DNA of 64,000 nucleotides, from the NCBI GenBank assembly GCA_026874595.1, contig CM049317.1:68508118-68572117 (forward strand), in the 5' to 3' direction. The notes below the pieces were generated by a model, which made no database searches, had not been told where the DNA came from, and was given only the letters and a program-made list of their open reading frames with translations. A program made the translations under genes and the position numbers. The DNA is from Sipunculus nudus. Lineage: Eukaryota; Annelida; Sipuncula; Golfingiida; Sipunculidae. This document shows positions 1 to 16,400 of the stretch, piece after piece; the stretch's first letter is position 1, and every line of letters begins with the position of its first letter.

Positions 1-138
1 GAAAAACTCATTACTGCCATTACTATATTATAATGATACAATAAAAATAAGAATTCTCATTACACTAATCTATCGGAATTCTTCTTATTATACTTTTTAA
101 TTTTAACATTTGTTTTTATAAATGGCTTTTTTTTATAG

Positions 139-3100
139 TTCCAGGCCTGGACCTACTCAACCTCTCCCCCACTATACAGATGGCGATGTTGGTGTCGCTG
201 GTTATTGTGTTGCTAGTTGGAGCTGGGGTTGTCACTCGACTGTAAGTGTATGACGTCATCAGTCATAACTAGTTATAAATCATAACTTGTTACTACGTCA
301 ACCACAAAAACCGTAGCTGCAGTGAGCCTTCTTTAAGTATTGTTATGTACCTTAAGCGAAAGAAATATTCCAAGCTGTGCATCAACAATGATGTGCATTA
401 ATGTGTTAAACATTGCCGCTTCTTGGTTCTAATTAGGAGCGCAATTTCCTTTGGCTGTGTCCGGGGGGGGGGGGGGACCCAAACACACAGGCCCTTGCTT
501 TGAATCATACCATTTTGAAAAACGCCTATCCCCATTTTCGCAATATATAGTTTTACAATAAAATTTCTCGTTTCTGGCACAGGGCCAAGAATTAGACCAA
601 CGACAGCGGGTTTCCTGGTGTAATCAGGTCAGCGAGAGCCGCGGGTGTCGCATGTTTAAAATTAGAGTTGGATGCACAATGCAATATCACGCTCTCATTG
701 GTCCGATTACAATTCCTTGCTCTGTGCGCACCCTGGTGTTCTTACCCAGAAAATCTTGCCATACAAAGCAGCGGTTACATGAAAAGATGCTTGGACGACT
801 GCATTGTGTAACCGCTGCATAAGAAGCTTTTTTTTATTTGTTTTCGATTGAATGTTGATGACTGGGTATCTTAAGCACGTTGGAGCACCATTTTATTGCT
901 CCGACTTTAACGCCGTTGCCGGTATCGGCACCACGGCGATCATCAGATAACTGACGCTCATTAGGGTTCTAGCTGTAACTATTTCTAATAAACACAACAA
1001 ATCAACGTTACGAAAAAGAAACAGAACTTTCGAAACACATTTGGACCATAAAGAGAAAGAAAATACAATATTCAATTAACTGGGAAATAAGCCGGCGCTC
1101 TAACACAGTGAAACTAACCCCGGATCAATGCAACCTCTGTATGAAGGAGAAATACAGCATATTACATCACAAAACCGACAAGTCAATAATCGTATTAAAC
1201 AGGCGTATAACGAATAAGTTTCAAAATGCCGACACCTGAAACTACCGAACCGTGCAAAGAGAAAGTAACCGTAACAGCTGGTTCCCCCACGAGCGTCAGT
1301 TAATAACACGATGCTCCAATGTGCTTAACATTTAAATATACATGCGAGAGTTCCATTCTCATTTATATCAAGAAATCCTCTACTTGCGTATTGTTAAACT
1401 GCCATATAGCTCATCTGGTGGCACGATTGACTTCACTCAGGACCCTGCTTATAATTCTCTCATGATCAAAGCCATATCTGTAGAATGGTGCAATAAATAA
1501 ACTGCCATGTTTTGCTTAACAGTGTGATCAGACGCATAAAAAGGAGTAAAACATATGACGTGACGTCGTGCAAAGACCAAGATACAGTCAGTCTACTTCC
1601 AAAGGTGAGTACATCTAATCAGTAATGAAAATCGTTACTATTCTAGCTTTCGACGGAAACCTGCGGCAGCTACACCCATGCATCTTGTTTTCCATATGCA
1701 AATCAGTTCAGCTCACACCGGAATATGGCATAAATCCTATAATAATAATAGAATGATGGGTTAGATCTGAGGGAACGTTCACTGACTTTCATAGTACATA
1801 TTGGTACTTTAAGGTGTTTAGTTAAGTATTACTTATTATTGATAATATTCAAAGAAACAGGCTTTCAATGCTCCGAGCATTGTTATATGTCTAAACTGGT
1901 CACAAAAATGTTCCTTATATTCCAGTAAATCAGTTTAAGTCAAGTTTGGAAAAATACCGAAAAATATCGATGTATGATAACAATACTGCGATACACAGTA
2001 TTTGAATTACTTTATTGTAAATGTCGATGTATCGATAATATCGGGTACCACAACACAATAATATTAGCATACAAATTGTATGCAGTAAGACGGTATCACA
2101 TTATTTATGGAAATGAAGGCGCATGCTTATCAACCTGACCATGCAGTCCGCACCTGCAGTCTTGTACAAGTTTTCCATTTTTTTTACAAGGGAAATCTAT
2201 GTATATTAATCTCTTATTGGTGGTTTCAAAATGCTGCTGTAAGGAAACGGTGCATAACATGGTGTTTAAGCGTGCCAGAGTTCAGTTCTTACATTTACAA
2301 AATATACTTAATTTTTTGTTACGGAGGTAAGCGCCTCTAATTTTTAATGCTTATATTTTTTCACATTGTCCTAGAGAAGGATCGGTTCATTGAATTAGCT
2401 GTGCCGTTTACAGGTCAGGGGCGTTATTTGTAAATTCTTCTCTTTTCATAGAATAAAAGTTCACCGGCACCAATACCAAGGAAAAGTATTTTTCGGGCGC
2501 CTTCAAACACTGTCAAAAATTCACGCTCCTCTGGGTCGGGAGGATCTTTTCAGTCATTTGCAGGTAGGTATACACAATGCAATTACAACACTTTAACACT
2601 GCTCCATTTGTACACCTTAATTCCTTTGATTTCTCATGCAGTCATTATCCTCGTCACTAGCGCAGTGTTTGCTTTTTAATGCTAAATTTTTTTAACGTAA
2701 AGGTGTAAGATTCATCATAGATTCAGTGTCCTTTAATTTGATATATTTATTCTTACAATCATTACGTCAGGTATATCATCTATTCTTGCAATGGGACGAG
2801 ACTGATGCTGTTTTGCTTAACATCTACAAGTAACAGGTACAGGACCATTCGGGGAATCATATTCGAATTAATGATTGAATAACTCATTATCACACAGTCC
2901 ATGTCCTAGTTTCAAGAAGAGATTTAAACTGAAAAAAAAATGATTATCGACCAGAGTAAAAATCTAGCGACAAAATAAAACAAGATTCGTGACCCCATGA
3001 GTGAACACGGTGTTACGTGGCCCCACTTGGCACTCCGAGCAGTCCTGCAGATATATTGACAAAAATATTGTCAAGGATCCATTAAAGTTCTTATTGATAA

Positions 3101-3193
3101 TTGCCGGGTTAATAAACGATGGATTTTCGTCACATATCCTGTTCAACATAAACAGTAAATCCTCGTTCCTTTGCCATCCATTCACTCGCCACT

Positions 3194-3259
<66 letters not shown>

Positions 3260-4208
3260 TATATAAATGATTAATTAAAAACTAAAAATCGCAACCCCCA
3301 GCCCCGTGTACTGTCCATGAAGTATAATCAAAACTCTCGGGGATCCAGTTATGACGATAACGATCCATGAATACACAAAATGTAATTTTGAAACGGTTAA
3401 ACATATCGTTTTTTTTTTAGATGAAGAATTACGAGAACGACACGTGCCCTACTCTGCCCAGAACAACTATCAGCACACGGACCCCTACCAGCAGGACCAA
3501 CAAAACTACACAGACAACTATGGTGAAAACTACGACTACTTGAATGAATACGAAAACTACGGCGCTGAAGATAACAGTGGTGAACAATGGAACTATGATT
3601 CCAATTATTATAACACACAGGGGCAAGATGTGCATGGTAATCCTGAACAAAATTACGACACTCAAAATGACTATAATAATGGTGAATATAATGGTTATGG
3701 CTACAACGATACAGGCGATAACTATAGGGTTAATAGTTATATGGATGCCCAACAAAACTATGGGGCACGAGAACTCTCTCCGCAGCAGAATATAGCACGG
3801 CCAGCCCCACCACCTTCGAAGCATTTGTTCCAAAACCAATCCCCGCAAGGATCGCCTTCCAGAAATTATGCCCAAAACACTGGCCATTTCCCACAAAACA
3901 ATATGGCCGCGCCTAATATTCAGCAGGCTTCATATCAGAATGAAGCGACCGGAATTCCCGCAGCAGCGCCACCGCCGCCTCCCCCTCCACCACCACCGCC
4001 GTCAGCTACTCCAGCTCCGCCTGCGCCAATGCATCCAGCTCCGCCTGCGCCCATGCATCAAGCTCCACCCGCGCCCCGGTTCCCGGCTCAACCAGGGCCC
4101 CGGGCCCCGCCTCCACCCGATCCCCTGTCCGGCGGAGGTGGCCCCGATGCTTTCTTGGCGCAGATCCGGGCCAGGCGTGTTGCTAGCTCGCATCAGAATT
4201 TTCTGTAA
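139..4208 (+). CDS. Single-pass membrane protein with N/Q/Y-rich, polyproline, WH2-like cytoplasmic tail (3' part of gene)
   Basis: Four exons can be joined with matching phases: 139-241, 1523-1604, 2452-2563 and 3421-4208, ending in TAA. Acceptors are ttttatag, tgcttaacag, tcttttcatag and a T-tract plus ag; donors are gtaagt, gtgagt and gtaggt. Together they give 360 residues. Exon 139-241 encodes a hydrophobic helix (LVSLVIVLLVGAGVV) and the next exon begins with the basic stop-transfer run VIRRIKRSK, so the tail is probably cytoplasmic. A Ser/Pro/Lys linker follows, then about 110 residues very rich in Asn, Tyr, Gln, Asp and Gly. Next come an 11-Pro run, two APPAPMH repeats and a C-terminus with DAFLAQIRARR, which resembles a divergent WH2 actin-binding helix (LxxQIR). 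The ectodomain must lie left of the window, since the first exon opens in mid-codon. I do not recognise the family. Actin or profilin binding is inference from polyproline and the WH2-like motif. The exon structure is well supported. Confidence 0.78.
588..650 (+). repeat. Isolated fragment related to the 32-bp satellite
   Basis: About two diverged units: GACCAACGACAGCGGG followed by GGTGTAATCAG, then a second unit with GCGAGAGCCGCGGG. The same words make up the large array at 18886-22049. The order and spacing match two adjacent monomers. Confidence 0.6.
871..1328. mobile_element. MITE-like element with terminal inverted repeats and TTAA ends
   Basis: The left end TTAAGCACGTTGGAGCACC is mirrored at the right end as GATGCTCCAATGTGCTTAA, with inverted similarity over about 29 bases and several mismatches. 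TTAA at both extremities (871-874 and 1325-1328) could be the target duplication or part of the repeat. The interior (about 400 bp) codes for nothing I recognise. TTAA targets are used by piggyBac and Kolobok elements, but the termini do not identify the superfamily. Confidence 0.5.
3195..3266. repeat. (AT)n microsatellite
   Basis: About 30 AT dinucleotides inside the last intron of the membrane-protein gene. The long Tyr-Ile reading frame across it is spurious. Confidence 0.95.
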
Positions 4209-4879
4209 TGGGTGTGCTTCTGGCTAGTAGCAAGAAATGCTTTAAGTCTGGAATGAAGCATAGATGCAGAGAGTGTAGTCAAAATCATATTATGAAACTG
4301 GGTTACTTTCCTCTGTATCTGACAAGCAGAATTGGGCGATATATTGGTATATTTCATTTCAAGGTGTTTTCGAGACAGATATCGGAACACTGGTATTGTG
4401 GTAATCTTCTGTTTTTAGTTTTCGCTGTATTACATCTTATGTTTTGCTACGGACAACTAAAAATGGCTTAGCCTGGATGTAAAGGAAGAAACCTCACTTT
4501 TCAAAGACTAGCTGTTCGCATTTAAAAACATATTATAAGCAATGAAGTATATTAACCGAAATGTGCTGAACTAACATGCCTGAGATATAAAGGTCACGTT
4601 AATTTTCCTGGGCCAATATTAAAATGCTGTTTTGTACATTTATTATCATCTGAATTATGATGTGTATTTCCAGACCTATGGCCAAGCTCTGTAGTATAGG
4701 TTCTTCTCGGTCCCACTTTCCCCGTTGCATTTCAAAGCATATTACCAAACAGGATAACATCACGTGATCACCCCTGTAACATGTAAAACAGGGTTAATGA
4801 ACATTAAATAGCTGTATGGTATTTAGGTGTGTATTGTTTTCTGTGTCGCCTAAATATGTGTTCTGCATGTGTTTCTGTT

Positions 4880-4901
4880 AATAAAACTATATGGTAATAA
4901 A
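4880..4901 (+). terminator. Two polyadenylation signals of the membrane-protein gene
   Basis: AATAAA occurs at 4880-4885 and again at 4896-4901, about 670 bases after the stop at 4208, followed by a T/G-rich stretch. This is a plausible 3' end of the mRNA. No stronger signal is seen nearer the stop. Confidence 0.45.
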
Positions 4902-5122
4902 TATTTTGTTCCCATACCCGAAATATCAATATGAGGTTTTTAATTCACGCTGTATATAAATGTATATTAAATTTCTCTGACAATTGACCGTGGACCTGAG
5001 GATGTGAAAGGATGATTTTTACATATCAACTAAATCTTTTATGAACTCGGCGATACAAAAACAAATTTTCCCAAATTATTTAACGTTAATAAAAAGCTCC
5101 CACACAAGCGAATACATCCGCC

Positions 5123-5227
5123 AATTTTACTCGAACAAAACATGGTCACGCCTAATGTTCAGCATGCAGGCTTCATATCAGACTGAAGCAACCGGATTTT
5201 CCACCGGAGCGCCATCTTTGCCAGGAT
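5123..5227 (+). pseudogene. Decayed duplicate of part of the membrane-protein last exon
   Basis: Bases here match 3885-3990 closely: both contain CCTAATRTTCAGCA, GGCTTCATATCAGA, TGAAGC and AACCGGA in the same order, encoding ASYQxEATG. The copy has small insertions (GCATGCAGGCTTC against GCAGGCTTC) and lacks the polyproline tract, breaking off at GCCAGGATAA. It lies 1.2 kb downstream of the parent exon, after the polyadenylation signals. It looks like a local duplication remnant, possibly of a second terminal exon. Confidence 0.65.
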
Positions 5228-5819
5228 AAAAACATTTGTCTTTTTTTTTTTTTTTTGTCATTGGAATGGCTGCTTCATCTTAACTCAGAAGTTATGAACA
5301 GATTTTGATGCACATTTGCGGAGGGTTAGTGTAACAAACTATAAAATATTCGAGGAAATATGGTTCATATTTATAAAGATTCTTAACCCTCGCGAGATAG
5401 GGTAGTTTGTTTACCCCGACTCAGGGATATTGACTTGGAAATACGTGTTTATTAACAGATGTGCAGAATTAAATGCAGCATGAAAAAAAAATCCATCATC
5501 AGATGTTTGAATTAAAGTATAATAATTATTAAAACGTGTCATAATTAGTGGCATCGTTATCAAGAAGCAAAACACTTGTCCAGTAAAAATATGTGACGAA
5601 TGATACCTCTGTATGTGATATTGTGTGTATAGACTTAAAGACAATTGGTTTAAACAATACTTGGCCTGCATATGCTTTCAGATACTGTACTCCGTGCCAA
5701 AGCAATAATTCAATAGATGATTAAACGATCTATCTAACGACCTAGTATTCTAGTTGTGTGTGCGTGATGGCATCCAGTTTTGCCTCTAAATAAGAAACAA
5801 GGGTAAAAAGTAAAGAAAA
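5228..5819. other. Intergenic, nothing recognised
   Basis: AT-rich sequence with a T15 run near 5245. No open frame, repeat or splice-bounded exon that I can support. Confidence 0.5.
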
Positions 5820-6693
5820 GGAAGTGGCTAAACAACCGGCATTGTGCCGGCAGTTTAGTCCACAGGCTAAACAGCCGGCAGGGGAAATTGACCTTGCCAG
5901 CAGTCTACCCCACTGGCTAAACTGCCGGCAAATTAATGTATGCTCTATTAAGACTATTAAGTCTATTTCAGTGTTATACCAATACTCTTTACTTTCCATT
6001 ATCATTATTATTTGGACAATGAGCTGACAATATAGTAATGACTTACCAAATTATCTATTTTGCTGGTCTATATGTAATAAGTATGTTGAGTAATAATGAG
6101 TAGGTCTTAAAAGTACACATTTGTGATGTTTACAGGGTACTTTTATTTACATTTTCTGATAAAAATTGTAATATTTACAGGATAGTTTATAGATTTTGTC
6201 ATAAAAATATACCAGAAATGTGAATGTGTGTCCAGAGACTGTTTATAGTTTATACACTAGTGTGCTTATAAGCAAACAAATAATTAGTGTGGGAAAACAA
6301 ACTCAGGTTATGTCAAAATAATGGCCAAAGGATCAGCTAATTACTTGATCAAAGGTATAATCACACAATCTTACACCACACCCAATTAAAGTTGCTGAGC
6401 CTAGCTATTGTGTTGTGAGATGATGCAAGAAATATCCACACCAAATAGCATTTCTTAAGAAAAGGCTATCAAAATATCTAATTTGGTAAGTCAGCACTAT
6501 ATTGTCAGCTCATTGTCAAAATGATAATGAAAAGTATAGAGAATCACACTGAAATAGAGCATACAATGTTACATTCATTTGCCAACAGTTCAGCCAGTGG
6601 GCTATAGACTCAAGGGCAAGGTTAGTATTCCCTGCCGGCTGTTTAGCCTGTGGACTAAACTGCCGGCACCCTGCCGGCTGTTTTGCCACTTCC
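5820..6693. mobile_element. Mutator-like MITE with long terminal inverted repeats
   Basis: The element starts GGAAGTGGCTAAAC and ends GTTTTGCCACTTCC. Inverted similarity extends about 225 bases inward on each side: GCCGGCAGTTTAG and CAGTTTAGTC blocks, then GACAATGAGCTGACAATATAG at 6015 mirrored near 6510. The flanks are taaagaaaa (5811-5819) and tgaagaaaa (6694-6702), a 9-base target duplication with one mismatch. Long inverted repeats plus a 9-bp duplication are typical of Mutator-like elements. The central 400 bp are AT-rich with no transposase. Confidence 0.75.
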
Positions 6694-6778
6694 TGAAGAA
6701 AAACAATCATATGATTCATAGTAACGATATCATTCACTTTATTATTCATGACAAAGGAATGCACGTTTTGGTTTGCAG

Positions 6779-7930
6779 TTTTTAGCTCAGCTGACTGAAA
6801 CTCATCTGAGCTATAGCGATCACTCTGTCCGTCGTCTAGCTGTCCGTGTGACCGTCCGTCTGTCCGTTAACAGGGCACAAATCTTAACCGCTGGACCTAG
6901 AAACATCATAATAAAACCCATGGTCCATAAAACAATCTCCTTGGAAATCTGAAATTAGGTCACTGTGACCTATATCCTTTGAGCTATTGGGCTCGAAAGT
7001 ACCCCCCCCCCCTAATAATTAAAATATGATACAAAAGCTCCAGTATCTGAATAAATTATATATTGATTATAATGATTATTTCCATGTATATTGATCATGG
7101 ACTGTTTCATCATTTCCTGAAGACTGGTGGCGCCACCTTTTCTAATTTTTACGCAATTTTTTTTATCTATCTGCAGATGAAGTAGTTCATCCAATACAGG
7201 GCACACATCGTAACCGTTACACCTAGAAACTTCTTACTACACATCCAGGGAGGTCTTAGGCAAATCTCCTTGGAAATCTGAAATAAGGTCATGGTGACCT
7301 ATATTTTGCGAACTAAAGGCGGAAAACATGTCAGTCCGACGGGACACAAATTGTATCCGCCAGGCTTAGATTCTTCTAGCACGACATGCAGGCAGGTCCT
7401 AGGTAAATCTGCATGGAAACCTGAAATTAGGTCATGGTAACCTATATTTTGTGAACTGTGGGCCAAACACGTGATTTTAAAACCCTGAAAATCAGATGGG
7501 CACAAATTGTGTCTGCTAACCCTAGAATGTTATTATGTAATATACAGGGAAGTCTTGGGCAATCTCCATGGAAACCTGAAATTAGGTCATGGTGACCTTG
7601 TTACTGGCCAAAAACATTTTAAGCGCCCAGTCAGACAGGGTACAACTTTTACTGTTGGACCTAGAATCTTCGGTCTTGACATCCAGGAATGTCCTTCAAA
7701 AATGTGAAAAGTTACCTTTTGGCTCAGCTGACTGCAAACAAAAAGGCTATATTTCATGGGAATAGCTGGACAAATTATCATGACAATTTTTCTTGTTGAT
7801 TTTGAAGGACTTTTGCAGTCCTACAGTTGAATGGGGATACCACCTACATAATGTGGCATTCAGATAATAAAATTCCTTTTGTGAATGTCTCCCTAGTCAG
7901 CTGAGCGTCAAGACCAATGGGTCACTTGTT
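6779..7930. mobile_element. Non-autonomous interspersed repeat (TTTAGCTCAGCTGA family), copy 1
   Basis: The left end is tttttagctcagctgactg with CATCTGAGCTATAGCGATCAC and a CCGTC-rich stretch. The right end is agtcagctgagcgtcaaga followed by CAATGGGTCACTTGTT. The subterminal AGCTCAGCTGACT and AGTCAGCTGAGCG form an inverted pair. The interior is tandem: GGGCACAAATC-type words recur at about 6875, 7200, 7343, 7500 and 7640, so one long unit (about 330 bp) is followed by short units (about 145-155 bp). No protein is encoded. Confidence 0.75.
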
Positions 7931-8605
7931 TGTTTATATCTTTAACAAATTGGCCCTTCAAGTAATACATTTTAAAGATTAGATTTTGTGTAGAATAATA
8001 AAAAATAATCAATTATTATTCAAATATGATTTTAATTAAATTTATTACTTTGTGAAAATTAAGTAATTTGTAATAGTAATTGAAATGGTTTCTTTTCAAT
8101 GTTATTGGCCCCAGCCCTGCGGGTCGCATGTCGGACTTAAATGTATACCGCCAGATAAGATAAACTCGCTTATAATGCTCACATTGTGCCCAATGTGTCA
8201 CAAATCATCGCTGATATACAAGGATCGAAGATGGCCAAAGGACATGTTAGATGAAGCAGAAAAAAAAAAGAAAAAAAAAGGTGTACACTCAGTACAAGTT
8301 TGGTGGGCTTGGGCAGTTAGTAAGTAACGTCAATGTAACACTGAAGGTTTAATTACTAGAATTTAAAGTAACTTATAGGGATAAAGTTAAAACATATGAA
8401 ATCTACCAGGTACAAGTGACTAAATATTTGTATCCAAAATTATATAAATTACGAGTGTATCCCTGGGGTCGTAGGTTCCCCATGCATCACATGAATCCAT
8501 GCATGTTAATGAGTAAGATAATACTACTGCGATAGTTTTCCATGACAATTCCTCACTCAATTATGCAAGCATACCAAGAGCGGATCTTAATTAATCTATA
8601 TTTAT

Positions 8606-8659
<54 letters not shown>

Positions 8660-8950
8660 CCCTCAATTACTTGTATCTCACATTTCAATTATAATGATAT
8701 TTGTTGAGATTAAAGCAGACATACCTTACAACAAAAATATAATTTGTTTGTATCTATATGCGATTTTATAAATTCGCCACCAGATATGATACAAGTGTCG
8801 GGAACCATGTGTCCTTTGATGTAACGGTTAAGCGATTATTGCGATTGACATTAGTAAATATATATTACATATAACAAATACATTACATACAGCGTAAGTG
8901 ACTAAACGGGCTTTAAAATTCAGTCAGTGAGACAAGTATTTGTTTCGCAA
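7931..8950. other. Intergenic, AT-rich, with (AT)n at 8609-8656
   Basis: No gene signal seen. An A-rich stretch at about 8261-8280 and an AT microsatellite of about 24 repeats are present. Confidence 0.6.
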
Positions 8951-8954
8951 CAGG

Positions 8955-9119
8955 ATGGAAGAGAGTGTTTACTTATACAGAGATGATCCTGTAATAGAAT
9001 TAAACGTTGATCCTGTAATAGATTTAAACGTAAATTCTGAAAAAGAATTAAACATAGATTTTGTTATAGAATTAGACGTAGATTCTGTAATAGAATTAAA
9101 CGTAGATTATGTAATATAA
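8955..9119 (+). CDS. Short ORF of octapeptide repeats over a minisatellite (doubtful gene)
   Basis: An ATG after a possible acceptor (gcaacag) opens 54 codons. After MEESVYLYRD the protein is repeats of D(P/S)VIELNV, because the underlying DNA unit is 24 bases, a multiple of three. It ends at TAA, where one unit has mutated (GTAATATAA). The repeat continues downstream without coding. There is no homologue I know of. It may be only a minisatellite that happens to be open on one strand. Confidence 0.2.
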   Translation: MEESVYLYRDDPVIELNVDPVIDLNVNSEKELNIDFVIELDVDSVIELNVDYVI

Positions 9120-9285
9120 TTTACCGTAGATCCTATAATAAAATTAAACGTAAATTTTGTAATATAATTAAACGTAGATTCTGTAATAGAATAAAACGTA
9201 GATTCTGTAATATAATAAAACTTAGATTCTGTAAAAGAATTAAACGTAGATTCTGTAATAGAATTTAACGTAGATTCTCTTTCAC
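8980..9285. repeat. 24-bp minisatellite, about 12-13 units
   Basis: The unit is close to GATTCTGTAATAGAATTAAA plus CGTA. Successive units differ at one to four positions, and the spacing stays at 24 bases throughout. Confidence 0.9.
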
Positions 9286-9300
9286 AAATGATACAAGTGA

Positions 9301-10224
9301 TGTGCGTTGCTACACTTAATGTATACACCTGATATAATTTTTAGCAAGCTTGATCTGTCTTACTGAAAAATGTGCACACCTGCCAATGAAATGACTTAAT
9401 TTTTATAAAATACAGTATTAATAAAAAAAATTAGTTCTTTTCCCAAACACTATAAATTTTACTTTACTTTAAATTTAATAAAATGACTGAATGTGAAATG
9501 AAACGGAATTGAAATTCTCAACTGCATGACTCCCCAGTAACGGAACAGTCAGGCCTAAACAGGTTCATTATTAGGCACTCATGGGTGGGGCGGGTTCCTT
9601 CAAATTGCCCCCGCCAATTAGAGCTTAATGAACATACTCGAGAGTAAGTACCCTTCATATGAACCATGGTAAGTAATTAAGTGATTAAGAGGGCGCAACC
9701 TCAACGTGTATTTAATGAAAATTCATGTGGTTACTTGTCTTTAATAAATTGTGGACGCCACAAGTCCGAAAGAAAGGGATTCCTCGAGTATAAGTAATTA
9801 AAATCGCCAGAACGCTTCACCTCTTTCGAGGAACCTTTTAAGTTCAGATCGGCTTTTGGGTGCATTACATATTGCGGTCTTGCCAAGTAATTACGCAATT
9901 AAGAAGAATTTGACTCATAAGCTGATTTTCATATTTGCCAAAGCGAGGCATAATATTGCATCAATATTATTTGTATAAAGGATTTCACACGTTTCCGGAG
10001 AGAATACGTTTGATTACTGAATTACTAGCCCAGTATCCCGCAATAAACAAAATCGTGTTGCATTGTAAAGTATAAGCCAGAGGCACACTTCACAGGAACC
10101 AGCTTCAAGATCGTAATTTATATACGTCGCTATAGCTGCAAGGAACGGGTATTTAGAAACCGGAGTTGGAGGCGGACTGGTTAAATCAGCCAGTCACCGA
10201 AGTTTATCATCTCCTAGGGGAAAC
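9301..10224. other. Upstream region of the Tctex-1 gene
   Basis: No repeat or ORF recognised. The last 100-200 bases before 10225 probably hold the promoter and 5' leader of the downstream gene. No clear TATA box is seen. Confidence 0.4.
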
Positions 10225-12097
10225 ATGTCTGCAAGTTTAAGGGCCGCTTCCTCCGTCAGGAGAAACCAACCACAGTAAGTTTTCTTGTTTTTTTTTTATA
10301 ATCATTTGTAATTTATATTACATTAAATATCGACATATTATTGTTAATGGTCATGAGTTAATTACACTTCCATGCCTAACTATAAAGTGAACTTTGGTCC
10401 CCTACATCTGGATCTAACCAGGGGGAATGGGACATTTTCGCACTATTGTTTCGCATATTGTATGCATATATAGCAGAATCTATCAGCTCTTTTTACAGTA
10501 AAAGGTATATATAAAAAATCGTAAAGTATACACTCGCAGTGTCGGAATCAGTAATTCAAGAACAGGGGGCGCTAATACTGGATTGTCGGTTAATAGGTAT
10601 TATGAAACTAAGTTCTTGAATTTTGCAATTAATTAAAAAAATATAAAATAAATATTATTGCTATTATTATTACGTAATATATTTCAGTCTATGAAAAATA
10701 TAAATATATTTTTTTACCCGTGAATAAAATCTACACCCATGTTTTTAATAAAGTTAGTTTCAGGTGCATGATGGAGGGAAGGGGCGGATGTGCTCCCCCT
10801 CTTCTGCTCGGAAATTATTTAAAATATATATGCAATGTAGAGAGGACATTCTAAGGCACCTTTCATAGAAATTATGAGGATTTTTTTATTCTTCAACTAT
10901 AATAATCCCTTAAATGTCTTTAAGGGGGTGGGGGTTAACGTTTTACAATTATATAATTCTTTTAATTTAGGATATAAAGTGGAACATGAATATAAATTGT
11001 ACCCTGTTGACGCCAATGGTGAAAATTCGCATCTACATTTATAACTTACAAAATATAATTTTTTTAAATGTAATCCTCAGGGTAAAAGGATTTATAGGGT
11101 CACCTCTTGCGCTTAGGCAGTGCACAAGACACAACAGAGCACAGATCGCGAGTTCGAATACTAGTATTAGCTGAAGAGGCGTGAGATTTTGCACGTTCGA
11201 CCCCAACCCAAGCCATGAAAACAAGACTCTCAGGCCTTTTGATATAAATTTACATGCAGGGCCTAAAATGTAATGCTATCTCAACGGAGCAGTTCAGTCA
11301 GTTGCTCATTCATATCCACAATTTATGAATGAATGCAATTAACCATAGGTACCCTAATAATCGAACTGGATGGAACAACACAGAAACATGAAAAATGAAA
11401 ATTAATCACGAATAAATCAGATAAGATATCGATAATAAGACCCCCACCCCTAAATTCCAAAATCCTGGATTCACTCGTGCATAGCATTAGTTGAGTGAAC
11501 AATCTTGCACAGGAATGTCGCCAAAAAAAGGAACAAGCTATATATAGGAAGCAACGCTCTCAACTGACATTGTCAATTTTGACCTAGGTTTCATAGACCT
11601 TTTCATCACTTCCAGTTAAGCGATGTGATTCTACGTTGAATAAACAATTTTTGTCTTTCTTTGTTTATTGTTTAACCTTTTTTTTCAAATAATATTCCTT
11701 CTTTATATGAAATAAATATTATATATTAACTATCCTTTGCAGATGCGAAAACTCTTATCAGCTGGAGCCTCAGGAAAAATTCCCAGTGGAGTACGCCGAG
11801 CGGCTAATGGAAAAGCATTTGAAAGAACATTTGAAAGGCTGGGAGTACAATCCGCAAGAAGCTTCTAGGAAGGCCAAGGAAATCGCTGAAGTCACAAAAA
11901 CCAGTATAATAGAAGCTACCAGTATAGAGCGATACAAAGTCGTGGCTTACGTGGTGATATGCCAGCGCTCCAAAACGACAGCAGCGTTAACTAGCCGTGG
12001 TATTATTGATGAACGATTTGACAGACGTGCCGAAGTCTCCTTCAAGTCTGATACACTCCATGCTACAGCAATTGCTTTTGCGGTTTATGCTGAATAA
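10225..12097 (+). CDS. Tctex-1 family dynein light chain (two exons, complete)
   Basis: Exon 1 is 10225-10274 (ATG, 16 codons plus CA, donor gtaagt). Exon 2 is 11743-12097, after atcctttgcag, ending in TAA. The split codon CA+A is Gln and the product is 134 residues. It contains ENSYQLEP...KFPVEYAE at the start of the domain, then the helix KAKEIAEVTKTSIIE, the strand RYKVVAYVVICQ and the end DTLHATAIAFAVYAE. That is the order and spacing of the Tctex-1 fold, and the length is close to TCTEX1D2-type proteins (about 140 residues). Such proteins are light chains of cytoplasmic or intraflagellar dynein and dimerise through the last strands. Here the conserved aromatic ending is replaced by VYAE. 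The subfamily is not settled; DYNLT2B-like is my best guess. The first exon is a short basic Ser/Ala/Arg leader. Confidence 0.88.
11095..11165 (+). repeat. Possible tRNA-derived SINE fragment in the Tctex-1 intron
   Basis: GAGTTCGAATAC resembles a polymerase III B box, preceded at about 40 bases by a weak A-box-like TGCGCTTAGGCAG. No clear tail or target duplication. Confidence 0.25.
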
Positions 12098-12150
12098 AAA
12101 CGAGTGCCGCATTGTATATGATAACTAAATTCACAAATATATACATCCCT

Positions 12151-12152
<2 letters not shown>

Positions 12153-12211
<59 letters not shown>
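12153..12211. repeat. (AT)n microsatellite
   Basis: About 29 AT dinucleotides just after the Tctex-1 stop codon. Confidence 0.95.
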
Positions 12212-12216
<5 letters not shown>

Positions 12217-12491
12217 CGGCGGACTAAAAACATTAACTTTTTTCATAAACCAAAATATTTCTATAGTTCTGTTATACCCTTCTATATGGACCGATAAACA
12301 GGAATATTTAGAATATCATTCATCTTTAAGAAGCATTGCTTGGTCTAATTTGCTGATTTAAACCTTTTTTGATAAAATTTGTCAGCTTTTCATTTCCAAT
12401 ACCAACGATTCATTGAGAGAAAAATCAATGTTTAACCATCTGTGCTTATTGTTTAAAAGAAAAATATTCGACAAAAATGAATGAAGAATGA

Positions 12492-12497
12492 AATAAA
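12492..12497 (+). terminator. Polyadenylation signal, Tctex-1 gene
   Basis: AATAAA 395 bases after the stop, followed by a TG-rich stretch (TTGTCGTCTTG...TGTGTTG). The AT microsatellite at 12153-12211 lies in the 3' UTR. Confidence 0.45.
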
Positions 12498-12634
12498 CAC
12501 ACACCATTGTCGTCTTGACTCTGTGTTGCGGTACAATATACAGTATTGTAAACCCTATATTAAAGGCGAGACTGATCAGTTTATTTCTATGTCAATATCT
12601 GACACTTTTGTGTGTGGGATTTTTTAGGTTATTA

Positions 12635-12653
12635 CCCCCCCCCCCCCCCCCCC
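12635..12653. repeat. Poly-C run
   Basis: About 19 consecutive C, in a stretch between the Tctex-1 and lectin genes with no other feature. The length should be treated as uncertain. Confidence 0.85.
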
Positions 12654-13073
12654 ACCCTCCGCGCGAATGCACAAGCATCGAATTTACATTTTTCCTAGTT
12701 TTTTTTTGTCGACTATTTTTCTACTGTCCATATGTGCCCGTGATTTTAAGGCACACTATTACATATCACAACATTTGTACCTGATATTTAATTTTCAACT
12801 TGACCTTAAACCCAAGGTCGTGCCCTAAATAGACTATTCCACATTGTCACTCAGTTGCGGATATCAGTGGGTGCTTTCCATTAATCGCCTTGGTGATTGC
12901 AGACATCTAGTTTTGCGATTTGTTGTTTTATGTGTTACTTGGCATAAAATTTGTAGTATTCTCGACCACCAATGATCAGACCAGTCCTAACCTGTGTAGA
13001 CAATGCTGAGCGGCAGTTTGCGATTCAAGCATCAATTATACTATTTAAAAACTTAACAGCCATGTCTTCACTT

Positions 13074-13079
13074 TTTAAT
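13074..13079 (-). terminator. Possible polyadenylation signal of lectin copy A
   Basis: TTTAAT on the plus strand reads ATTAAA on the minus strand, about 65 bases beyond the stop codon. It is a common variant signal; the assignment is weak. Confidence 0.3.
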
Positions 13080-13141
13080 CAGCCTACCCAGATAATCATA
13101 TCCTGTCTGCAGCTTTGTTGATGGCGTATGCATCATATCTG

Positions 13142-13403
13142 TTACATTAGACTAAAGCTGGTTTCACATATCCCATAAAAACCATGGGATTTCCCAACGA
13201 CGTCGTTCCACGTCCAGCCCCCAGGATGAAGCATTACGCGATCTTCGGTGACGTCACTGGGCTCACCTTGCCTCCAGTTTGTGTAGCTGAACGGCTGACC
13301 TGTAGCTTCCCAGACCCATTCATGTGTTTTGTTCATATACTTGCCTGATGTCATATATCCTACAAAATGGATATATTGAAATATAGAGATATTTTAGTTA
13401 ATG

Positions 13404-13462
<59 letters not shown>

Positions 13463-16400
13463 ACTGGACCTCCCAGGCCGCAAGCAATTATGTTTGCCAC
13501 TTATATTATTATATTATTAGAGTAATAATCCTATAACTTAATCCTATGCCTAGGTAGATGTAACTAAGTCTAGAACTTCCCTGCTTGCTGATACAGTGCA
13601 AAGCAAAACTCATTCTATGATTAAGGACTGGTTATTTACTAGTTGCGGATACGATCACAGTTGTGGGAATTACCTGTACAGTGAGGCCTTTTAATTGTGA
13701 AATGGTAGAAGGTACCAAAAAACTCTTAAGGTGCTAATTATGCACATCAAAATACACCCGTTCGTGTCTTTTGTAGTGAATGGGTCTGTCTGTAAACATT
13801 ACTACGTTCTTACCTTAATGTTTTAATAAATCATAATCCCCCAAAGATCCCTGTACGCCCGCCGTGATTTAATTATAACAAACGTTATGAACTTGTTGTA
13901 AGCGGACGTTGAACGACTGGTACCCTGCACTGAGCCCCTATTAAAGCGTGTTTTTTCCAGTACCAACAGCGAAAAGAACGAAGTGGGGTCCCAGTCTAGG
14001 TTTCGTTGCAAATACCTGTGACACACTTCACTTAATCATGGCGACTTCTCCGACATGTAAACTTATAGGCTCTTGGTATAACTATGGATGTGTAGGACAA
14101 CTGAGCATTACATTATTTTAAGTTGACGCTAGATACAAAGTCACTTATATGATTCCAAAGGGACCTCTTACTTGGAACCCTACATGGCGTTTTCATAGGG
14201 TCAATCTCAAGACGTTGCCAAGCGAATCTGAATTAAGCGACTTGAGACAAGTTATTAATATGATATATAAATGACCATTCTTAAAAAAAGGTAACCAACT
14301 TGCTTTAAACAAAATTGATACATTTTAACATTGCCAATTTTAACCGGAATTCCTTCAAGCAATTTGGAGTCAGCCAAAATTTGGTCAAGTTTAGTCAGGC
14401 CAAGAAAGTCGGCTGACAACTGAAGTCTGACACGTGTTGCCCAAGCTAGCCAAAATTATATGGCCAACAGCAGCGGACTCTACAAACACAAAACTGATAA
14501 ACCTTTCCCAGTGGTACGGATACTTTTCTCAATATGCCGCTGCTCCCCTTCAGTTTCGATGCTGACAAGGCCTGACCCTAAGTCTTCACAAATATTTGCG
14601 AGGTATGTCACATTCCCTTTCTCAGGTGTCAAGTGATAACAGGAAGCCATGTAAACACCGTCCGGTAGAGGTCGCCCTTGGTTGTAAATTTGGTCGAAAA
14701 GTTCCGGACATCTGGCTGCAAAACAATACCATACATATGATATCAAGAAACAAAAATTGAAAGAACGAAGATAGACTTGGGCACCTGCAAAACAATACCA
14801 TACATATGATATCGGGAAACAAAAATTTAAAGAACGAAGATAGACTTGGGGCACCTATGAACACTAATAGTTAGGACGCCAATGCATCACTTCCTGTCCA
14901 AATTGTCCTGGCATGAACGCACACCGTCTGGTCCTAACACAGTAAGGACTCCGTGACATTGTTGCATGCATGTACACCTTCACAAACATATATTAAACTC
15001 AAAAGAACACCAGCAATTACGTTGTAACATGATTTGGTCTTGATACCATGTGATGAGTATATTTCTACAGTTATTCTTTGGTCAACTTTTTTAGGGGTGG
15101 ACTACCTTAATATTGCCAGTTTCTGGCTTGGTCAGATTCGCGGTACCAAGTTCTCCGTGGTCGTAATACTACTCTCATTCATGTTGCAGGTAAACACCCA
15201 GCCCACTTAATAAACCTCCGAGTAAGGCTTATAAGAACTCAAAATAAGATAATGGTGTGCATGCGAAGAAACACATTTTAAAATAAATCATGTAATTAAC
15301 CTTTGGTAAATAAACGTGGGTCTTTAACCTGGGTATGCCCCGCTTAGATCCATTATTTTGCCAGAATTTTTTGTTTTAGAGACTGAATAGCACTATTTTA
15401 GGGACCAGGCGGTAAAAATTATGCTTGGATTTCAACTTTGAAAACAAGTTGCATCCTGTTACCTTGACCCTAAGTAAAATGTCATTTGTAGTTAGAACCT
15501 TTCTCTCATCGCTTCGTAATTTTGCACCTAGATAATATGTTTAATTTTTCCATTTGAGCAAGAAAACAAGTGACCTGACATAGTTAAGGGTTTGTTGTTA
15601 GATTATGTTTGCTAATGTGGCCAAGGGAGGGACATTTAATAATTTCCGGCAGAGCACCAAGAGAAGGCATGCAGTCCTCTCCGTCTCTGTATACAGAGAT
15701 GAATACTGCGTTTAGGACACACTAACCTTCAGCTTGCTTGGTGGATGCTGATATAGCCAATAGAGGACACACTCTGCCCTCCGTAGTCCTAGCCTGACAA
15801 GAGCACTCCGAGTACTGGTACAAACAGCCACGGGTACGTTTTGCCCAATTGTCATTTAGTGTACAATTCGTCCATGGTGACCAATTTCCCCATTTCCAGG
15901 CGAGTATTCCTGATAAGGATATAAGAGAAATTTTGGTGACAGTAATATCTGCAGAATTTATCTGAGGAGAAAACTTAGGACACGTTACGTTACCTGGTCC
16001 CAGGGGCGGATCCAAGATTTAGGGACAAGATTTAGGGATTGAGTGGGACATAAATCCCACTGTGGATCAGCTTCTCACTTCTGTTCAATGAAATTCAGGG
16101 TTCGGGGCCTGTGGGCATTTTTATCATCCTATGCTAAGGGGAAAACCAAACAGATGCCGCTTTTATCGCAAAATAAAATATGTATTTTAACTGGCGGTAG
16201 TACCACTTGACTTTTGTAACGGAACTCTTCTCTGGTCAAACCTCGTATATGCCCCTTCTTAGTCTTGAACTGTCCTGAATTATGCCAAGTATGTCAAAAG
16301 GTGTGTGTGTATGAGGGGGGGGGGGGTCATTCCCCATATTTCCTTAAAAATCATGAGATATTTGACATCCCCTGGCAAAGGGGCTATTGCAGCGCTATCT

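Follow-up and report, generated by a model that had tools for sequence, protein, structure and literature searches.

Receptors usually reach actin via adaptors. Among the described proteins with an Ephrin_rec_like domain (PF07699) are the Eph receptors, SCUBE and SVEP1, and the Eph receptor kinases carry ephrin-binding and kinase domains, while the sperm proteins of the ZPBP (Sp38) type combine an Sp38 immunoglobulin (Ig) domain with a second Sp38-type domain and have no membrane helix. Here, a 64,000-nucleotide stretch of the Sipunculus nudus genome (assembly GCA_026874595.1, contig CM049317.1, forward-strand positions 68,508,118 to 68,572,117; hereafter the window) and its upstream flank were analysed for a gene whose predicted product is, from its domain order, a type I receptor or an adhesion protein that crosses the membrane once and has a long tail. 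The gene belongs to a family whose members share one head and differ in their tails. Our preferred, though tentative, reading is that the tail recruits profilin-actin at the membrane. The architecture can be read in the sequence, the role of the tail would follow from its motifs, and drift of the tail is a strong rival explanation.

The window holds the 3' half of this larger gene, and the start of the gene lies to the left of it. Four exons (103, 82, 112 and 788 nt; Table 1) are present with AG acceptors and GT donors in a single open frame closed by TAA, and their boundary phases 1, 2, 0 and 1 are all compatible, as had been read in an earlier note made from the letters of the window. The single membrane helix described there was also recovered (best 19-residue Kyte-Doolittle mean 2.63), followed by the basic flank VIRRIKRSK.

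The exons to the left of the window, which the earlier note had proposed to retrieve, were found in the 10 kb directly upstream of it (L009). The Pfam scan of the plus strand of L009 gave a single exon each for Ig and Ephrin_rec_like, and a further hydrophobic exon was judged signal-like by its look. The upstream exons connect directly to the membrane-helix exon with an unbroken frame, and the joined model has 520 residues, comprising the signal-like segment, one Ig domain, one Ephrin_rec_like domain, the membrane helix and a tail of 326 residues. In the joined protein, Ephrin_rec_like scored 46.2 bits (cut-off 23.1) over profile positions 1-48 of 48, which places it in that domain family, and the Ig domain scored 31.0 bits on Ig_3 (cut-off 30) and 27.9 bits on I-set (cut-off 23.7). 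The earlier view of a membrane protein is supported. The plus strand of the next 10 kb further upstream (L010) had no Pfam match, and apart from the gene's own exons neither the window nor the 60 kb before it contained an Ig or Ephrin_rec_like relative.

The head of the protein recurs on the same chromosome. The window contig corresponds to Chr12 in Table 4 of PMC10212961, and a genome search with the Ig exon (20 candidates scored) gave four relatives on chromosome 12, here called paralogues A to D; besides these and this gene itself, 14 weaker matches (E 0.06-8.3, C5 and C17) were listed, 19 in all at E <=10. The receptor family on chromosome 12 thus numbers at least five genes. The four paralogues lie as two pairs, with ~150 and ~215 kb between partners.

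Each paralogue has the exon order seen here: Ig, then Ephrin_rec_like (42-46% identity), then a transmembrane (TM) exon. The TM exons measure 103 nt here, 94 nt in B and 91 nt in A, C and D, all entered in phase 1 and left in phase 2, and the Ephrin_rec_like exons measure 162 nt here and 165 nt in B, C and D, with phases that agree where read. Fifteen Ig columns and 19 Ephrin_rec_like columns are invariant in all five genes, and the former include C13, W28 and C63, in keeping with membership of the I-set of the Ig superfamily. The shared exons, phases and columns give the receptor head a support from homology that does not depend on the exon calls in the earlier note. Within the window, the first exon is backed by the position and phases of the membrane exons in the four paralogues, whereas for the second only the 5' junction phase agrees (with the TM-to-tail junction of the four paralogues).

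The last exon behaves as coding sequence, since its open run of 262 codons was matched by 0 of 1000 first-order Markov copies (mean 95, maximum 238). The Asn/Tyr/Gln/Asp tract, the run of 11 Pro and the DAFLAQIRARR near the C-terminus, all pointed out previously, are located in it. Codon use is mixed for Asn, Tyr, Gln and Pro, with 15 AAC and 15 AAT for Asn and four different codons in the Pro run, and the Asn/Tyr tract therefore lacks the look of a recent trinucleotide expansion. The disorder check suggested in the earlier note agreed with low predicted order: AlphaFold2 on exon 4 alone, run with one sequence, gave a mean predicted local distance difference test score of 52.5 (weak evidence for disorder when it comes from an alignment-free run) and one helix of >=4 residues, PDAFLAQIRARRVA, at residues 242-255 of the exon. 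The tail thus has no predicted fold in this model.

Polyproline was named in the earlier note as a binder of profilin or SH3 domains, and the sequence here fits profilin: the profilin-binding motif given in PMC7407642, xPPPPP with x = A, S, L or G, is found in AAAPPPPPPPPPPPS. Across the tail, 15 matches to [PGA]PP plus a hydrophobic residue were counted (overlapping matches in runs counted singly) against a shuffle mean of 0.87. The tandem repeats found in exon 4 by Tandem Repeats Finder (TRF) are confined to the Pro-rich part, 3969-4119. About 0.9 kb past the stop, window positions 5135-5214 carry an 80% identical copy, with small indels, of the exon-4 stretch 3893-3971; part of the tail was thus duplicated here and the copy has decayed.

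Once the head has engaged a ligand, the tail may work as a flexible membrane-anchored scaffold, whose polyproline would bind profilin and concentrate profilin-actin. The C-terminal helix could then fit into the barbed-end cleft of this actin, holding it perhaps weakly, or hold another partner, and the acidic Tyr-rich tract could act as a spacer or as a docking site under kinase control. The tail would in this way feed actin assembly instead of nucleating alone. A bolder version, which we consider unlikely, is a receptor with its own actin-feeding module, in which ligand binding by the head would bring the polyproline and a minimal half-WH2 to the membrane without WASP-type adaptors, and in which the chromosome 12 family would keep the outer part and swap tails.

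Several results weigh against an actin-recruiting tail. Neither the whole tail nor its last 40 residues matched the Pfam WH2 profile at E <=10, within the HMMER filters, which drop most matches above E ~0.1, and in a genome search with PF02205 at E <=1 (16 candidates scored) the eight places found, all over the cut-off, do not include this gene. A WH2 profile of 19 positions was built from seven of these eight places; the eighth (L033) was omitted since its longer helix-to-LKK spacing was missed by the selection pattern. With this own-genome profile the last 25 residues scored 7.4 bits, the last 40 residues 6.4 bits and the whole tail 2.7 bits, against 19.2-34.6 bits for the genuine WH2s in leave-one-out (n=7). 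An LKKV-type motif, a half described as characteristic of WH2 in PMC8102491, is missing at the usual spacing, where the place reads ASSH by eye and the alignment ends at IR. The 7.4 bits exceeded all 12,994 background 25-mers, drawn from six-frame stop-free sequence of the analysed loci minus the WH2 loci rather than from a proteome, by a small margin over the highest of them (6.8 bits). The exon with the start codon was also not found in the upstream sequence.

The helix itself resembles the first half of a WH2. The score of 7.4 bits was above 1000 of 1000 shuffles of the same 25 residues and falls inside the range of the seven WH2s cut to their first half (1.9-13.0 bits). The alignment of the last 40 residues covers DAFLAQIR only, at profile positions 3-10, and there the predicted helix agrees with the LLxxI pattern of the N-terminal amphipathic helix of WH2. 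It also carries Gln before the conserved Ile, a residue among those given for this place in PMC8102491. The last 40 residues had a single match in the PDB, at E 0.83, which is not meaningful.

Membership of WH2 is rejected on the Pfam negative, the own-genome profile score and the missing LKKV half, and the C-terminus is half a WH2 and not a WH2. The WH2-like end of the earlier note thus failed as a WH2 by the profile search that the note itself had chosen as decisive: Pfam was negative for the last 40 residues, and what stood was the helix half in the own-genome profile. The actin nucleation proposed there is unlikely for the tail alone, which has half a WH2 at best and gave no further match to an actin or Arp2/3 domain.

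The paralogue tails add to the points against it. The tail has 326 residues here and 243, 227 and 239 in B, C and D, nearly all in a single last exon, and it reads as 43 residues in A, where the junction was placed by eye and another splice is possible. The stop of paralogue C lies 13 codons before that of D. The modelled paralogue tails have no Asn/Tyr tract, polyproline or C-terminal helix: Pro runs reach at most 2 residues in B, C and D and 1 in A against 11 here, the best 80 residues hold 16, 16 and 12 N+Q in B, C and D against 28 here, and the best tail 25-mer scored 3.2 bits (B), -0.1 (C), -0.2 (D) and -0.1 (A) on the WH2 profile against 7.6 here. Since no paralogue tail has a Pro run above 2 or a WH2-like end, actin binding is not a trait of the family.

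These differences are also what would be expected if the tail were fast-drifting and weakly constrained, with the ectodomain doing the work and the polyproline and WH2-like end arisen by chance. We hold this explanation to be somewhat doubtful, and it nevertheless stays strong because the paralogues lack both features. Tail length in the five genes varies between 43 (A, as modelled) and 326 residues, the WH2 match covers half a motif, and short tandem repeats occur within the Pro-rich part. A MAFFT alignment of the tail with those of B, C and D looked plausible, and in 18 segment comparisons with two kinds of shuffle each, none reached P <0.05 (lowest 0.062); homology of the tails is not claimed because the segments, including exons 2, 3 and 4, were not more similar than shuffles. 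Among B, C and D, the ratio of nonsynonymous to synonymous substitution rates (dN/dS) was 0.48-0.69 in the tail and 0.37-0.42 in the ectodomain and TM segment (the C-D values rest on few changes), indicating that these tails evolve faster, not freely. Against drift, the tail ratios stay below 1, on few sites and with nothing direct on the tail of this gene, and the mixed codons of the Pro run and of Asn and Tyr would fit maintenance at the amino-acid level.

The acidic tract would gain a different meaning if the tail were a phosphotyrosine docking platform, in which a kinase acts on the 20 Tyr to create sites for Grb2 or other SH2 adaptors, with the polyproline secondary as a site for SH3 domains or profilin. 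This we regard as improbable. The tract of 105 residues contains 21 N, 20 Y, 13 Q and 12 D (N+Q 32%, Tyr 19%), and with 19 D/E and 1 R it has a net charge of -18. The NY dipeptide occurs 10 times against a shuffle mean of 4.0, a count reached in 0 of 2000 shuffles, and it is this enrichment, rather than prion character, that stands out in the tract. YxN sites would suggest Grb2, and five are present in the tail; the tract, however, has 4 against 3.9 in shuffles and is not enriched. The tail had no match to SH3 class I or II, EVH1, Nck-type YDxV, NPxY or WW motifs. The YxN count and the SH3, EVH1, YDxV and NPxY negatives weigh against profilin-actin recruitment as well. A single Y..[LI] site is present, not above shuffles, and a WIRS-like FQSFAD spans the junction of exons 3 and 4 (P 0.17).

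The earlier note had offered, as its second option, condensates formed by a prion-like tail at the membrane, and this we consider very improbable. The composition of the tract and the low predicted order speak for it, and the term prion-like holds loosely for a segment rich in N, Q and Y. In the best 80 residues, however, N+Q is 28 (cut 30) and the PAPA maximum is -0.035 (cut 0.05), and the tract is acidic, so that a prion-like domain was rejected on these simple scores.

The coordinates of the features are collected in Table 1.

Table 1. Exons, tail features and chromosome 12 paralogues of the receptor gene (window positions unless L009 or chr12 is given; L009 is the 10 kb directly upstream of the window).
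Feature	Position	Strand	Evidence
Hydrophobic signal-like exon PRLLLALLFLLQVITRMSASG, 66 nt, phase-1 gtaagt donor	L009 3285-3350	+	read on DNA
Ig exon, phase 1 to phase 1	L009 5766-6017	+	Pfam, splice reading
Ephrin_rec_like exon, 162 nt, phase 1 to phase 1	L009 9815-9976	+	Pfam, splice reading
Membrane-helix exon (V)PGLDLLNLSPTIQMAMLVSLVIVLLVGAGVVTRL, phase 1 in/2 out	139..241	+	splice sites, frame, hydropathy, paralogue TM phases
Juxtamembrane exon VIRRIKRSKTYDVTSCKDQDTVSLLPK, basic stop-transfer flank, phase 2 in/0 out	1523..1604	+	splice sites, frame
Ser/Arg/Lys-rich linker exon, phase 0 in/1 out	2452..2563	+	splice sites and frame only
Final coding exon (262 codons, then TAA); no predicted fold in the tail	3421..4208	+	frame, coding test, AlphaFold2
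Acidic Asn/Tyr/Gln/Asp tract, 105 aa	3447..3761	+	composition, shuffles
Polyproline, 11 Pro, within AAAPPPPPPPPPPPS	3969..4001	+	fits profilin motif xPPPPP
Pro/Ala-rich stretch, APPAPMH units, 24-nt period	4002..4118	+	TRF rows 4010-4075, 4062-4119
C-terminal helix PDAFLAQIRARRVA, half-WH2	4143..4184	+	AlphaFold2 helix, WH2 profile
Paralogue A	chr12 52.99 Mb		Ig-exon E 1.5e-7
Paralogue B	chr12 53.20 Mb		Ig-exon E 0.0027
Paralogue C	chr12 12.86 Mb		Ig-exon E 2.9e-4
Paralogue D	chr12 12.71 Mb		Ig-exon E 0.0115

In the surroundings of the gene, a Tctex-1 domain (dynein light chain type; 48.8 bits) lies on the plus strand at about 11798-12079 and is the sole Pfam match on that strand of window 4209-14208. 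The minus strand of window 1-10000 had no Pfam match at E 0.1, and Rfam gave none in the window. Intron 1 contains a dispersed repeat (871-1302) with 39 other places among 40 candidates scored (4445 in a first look) and with inverted arms at 948-986 and 1264-1302 that are 74% complementary. The intron before the Ig exon holds a tandem duplication of ~0.92 kb (L009 3889-5652, 82-90% identity).

Among the best matches in the open-access literature, at the level of titles and abstract starts, no transmembrane receptor with WH2 and polyproline in such a layout was seen, and the layout was likewise not found for Ig plus ephrin-receptor-like proteins or for Ig receptors of S. nudus.

Among solved structures, the closest matches of the ectodomain are the I-set Ig receptors, with Robo1 and MuSK best (E 1.4e-7), while the five-gene Ig profile matched contactins. 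On the Ephrin_rec_like side, thyroglobulin and a mastigoneme-like protein were matched as well. Unlike Robo1, MuSK and contactins, the joined model has one Ig and one Ephrin_rec_like domain with no kinase or fibronectin domain, and the tails of those receptors are unlike this one. With the Ephrin_rec_like proteins it shares one full-length domain. Identity as an Eph receptor kinase was rejected, as neither an ephrin-binding nor a kinase domain was present in the joined model or on the plus strand of L009, L010 or window 4209-14208. ZPBP (Sp38) was rejected as well: the Ig exon alone is borderline on Sp38 (23.2 bits, cut-off 23.1), whereas the full protein falls below the cut-off (18.8 bits), Ig_3 and I-set score higher, a second Sp38-type domain has no match and a membrane helix is present.

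The order of polyproline, Gly-rich linker and helix recalls WASP-type proteins. With WASP/WIP-type regulators the tail shares a polyproline with the profilin motif, a Gly-rich linker and a WH2-like helix, whereas the protein here spans the membrane, has half a WH2 with a negative Pfam result and shows no Arp2/3-binding region by eye. If the profilin-actin reading is right, the receptor would be linked to actin directly, through a WH2-like helix and a polyproline for profilin that are both part of its tail, and the chromosome 12 family, with one head and several tails, would be useful for understanding how cytosolic tails arise and change.

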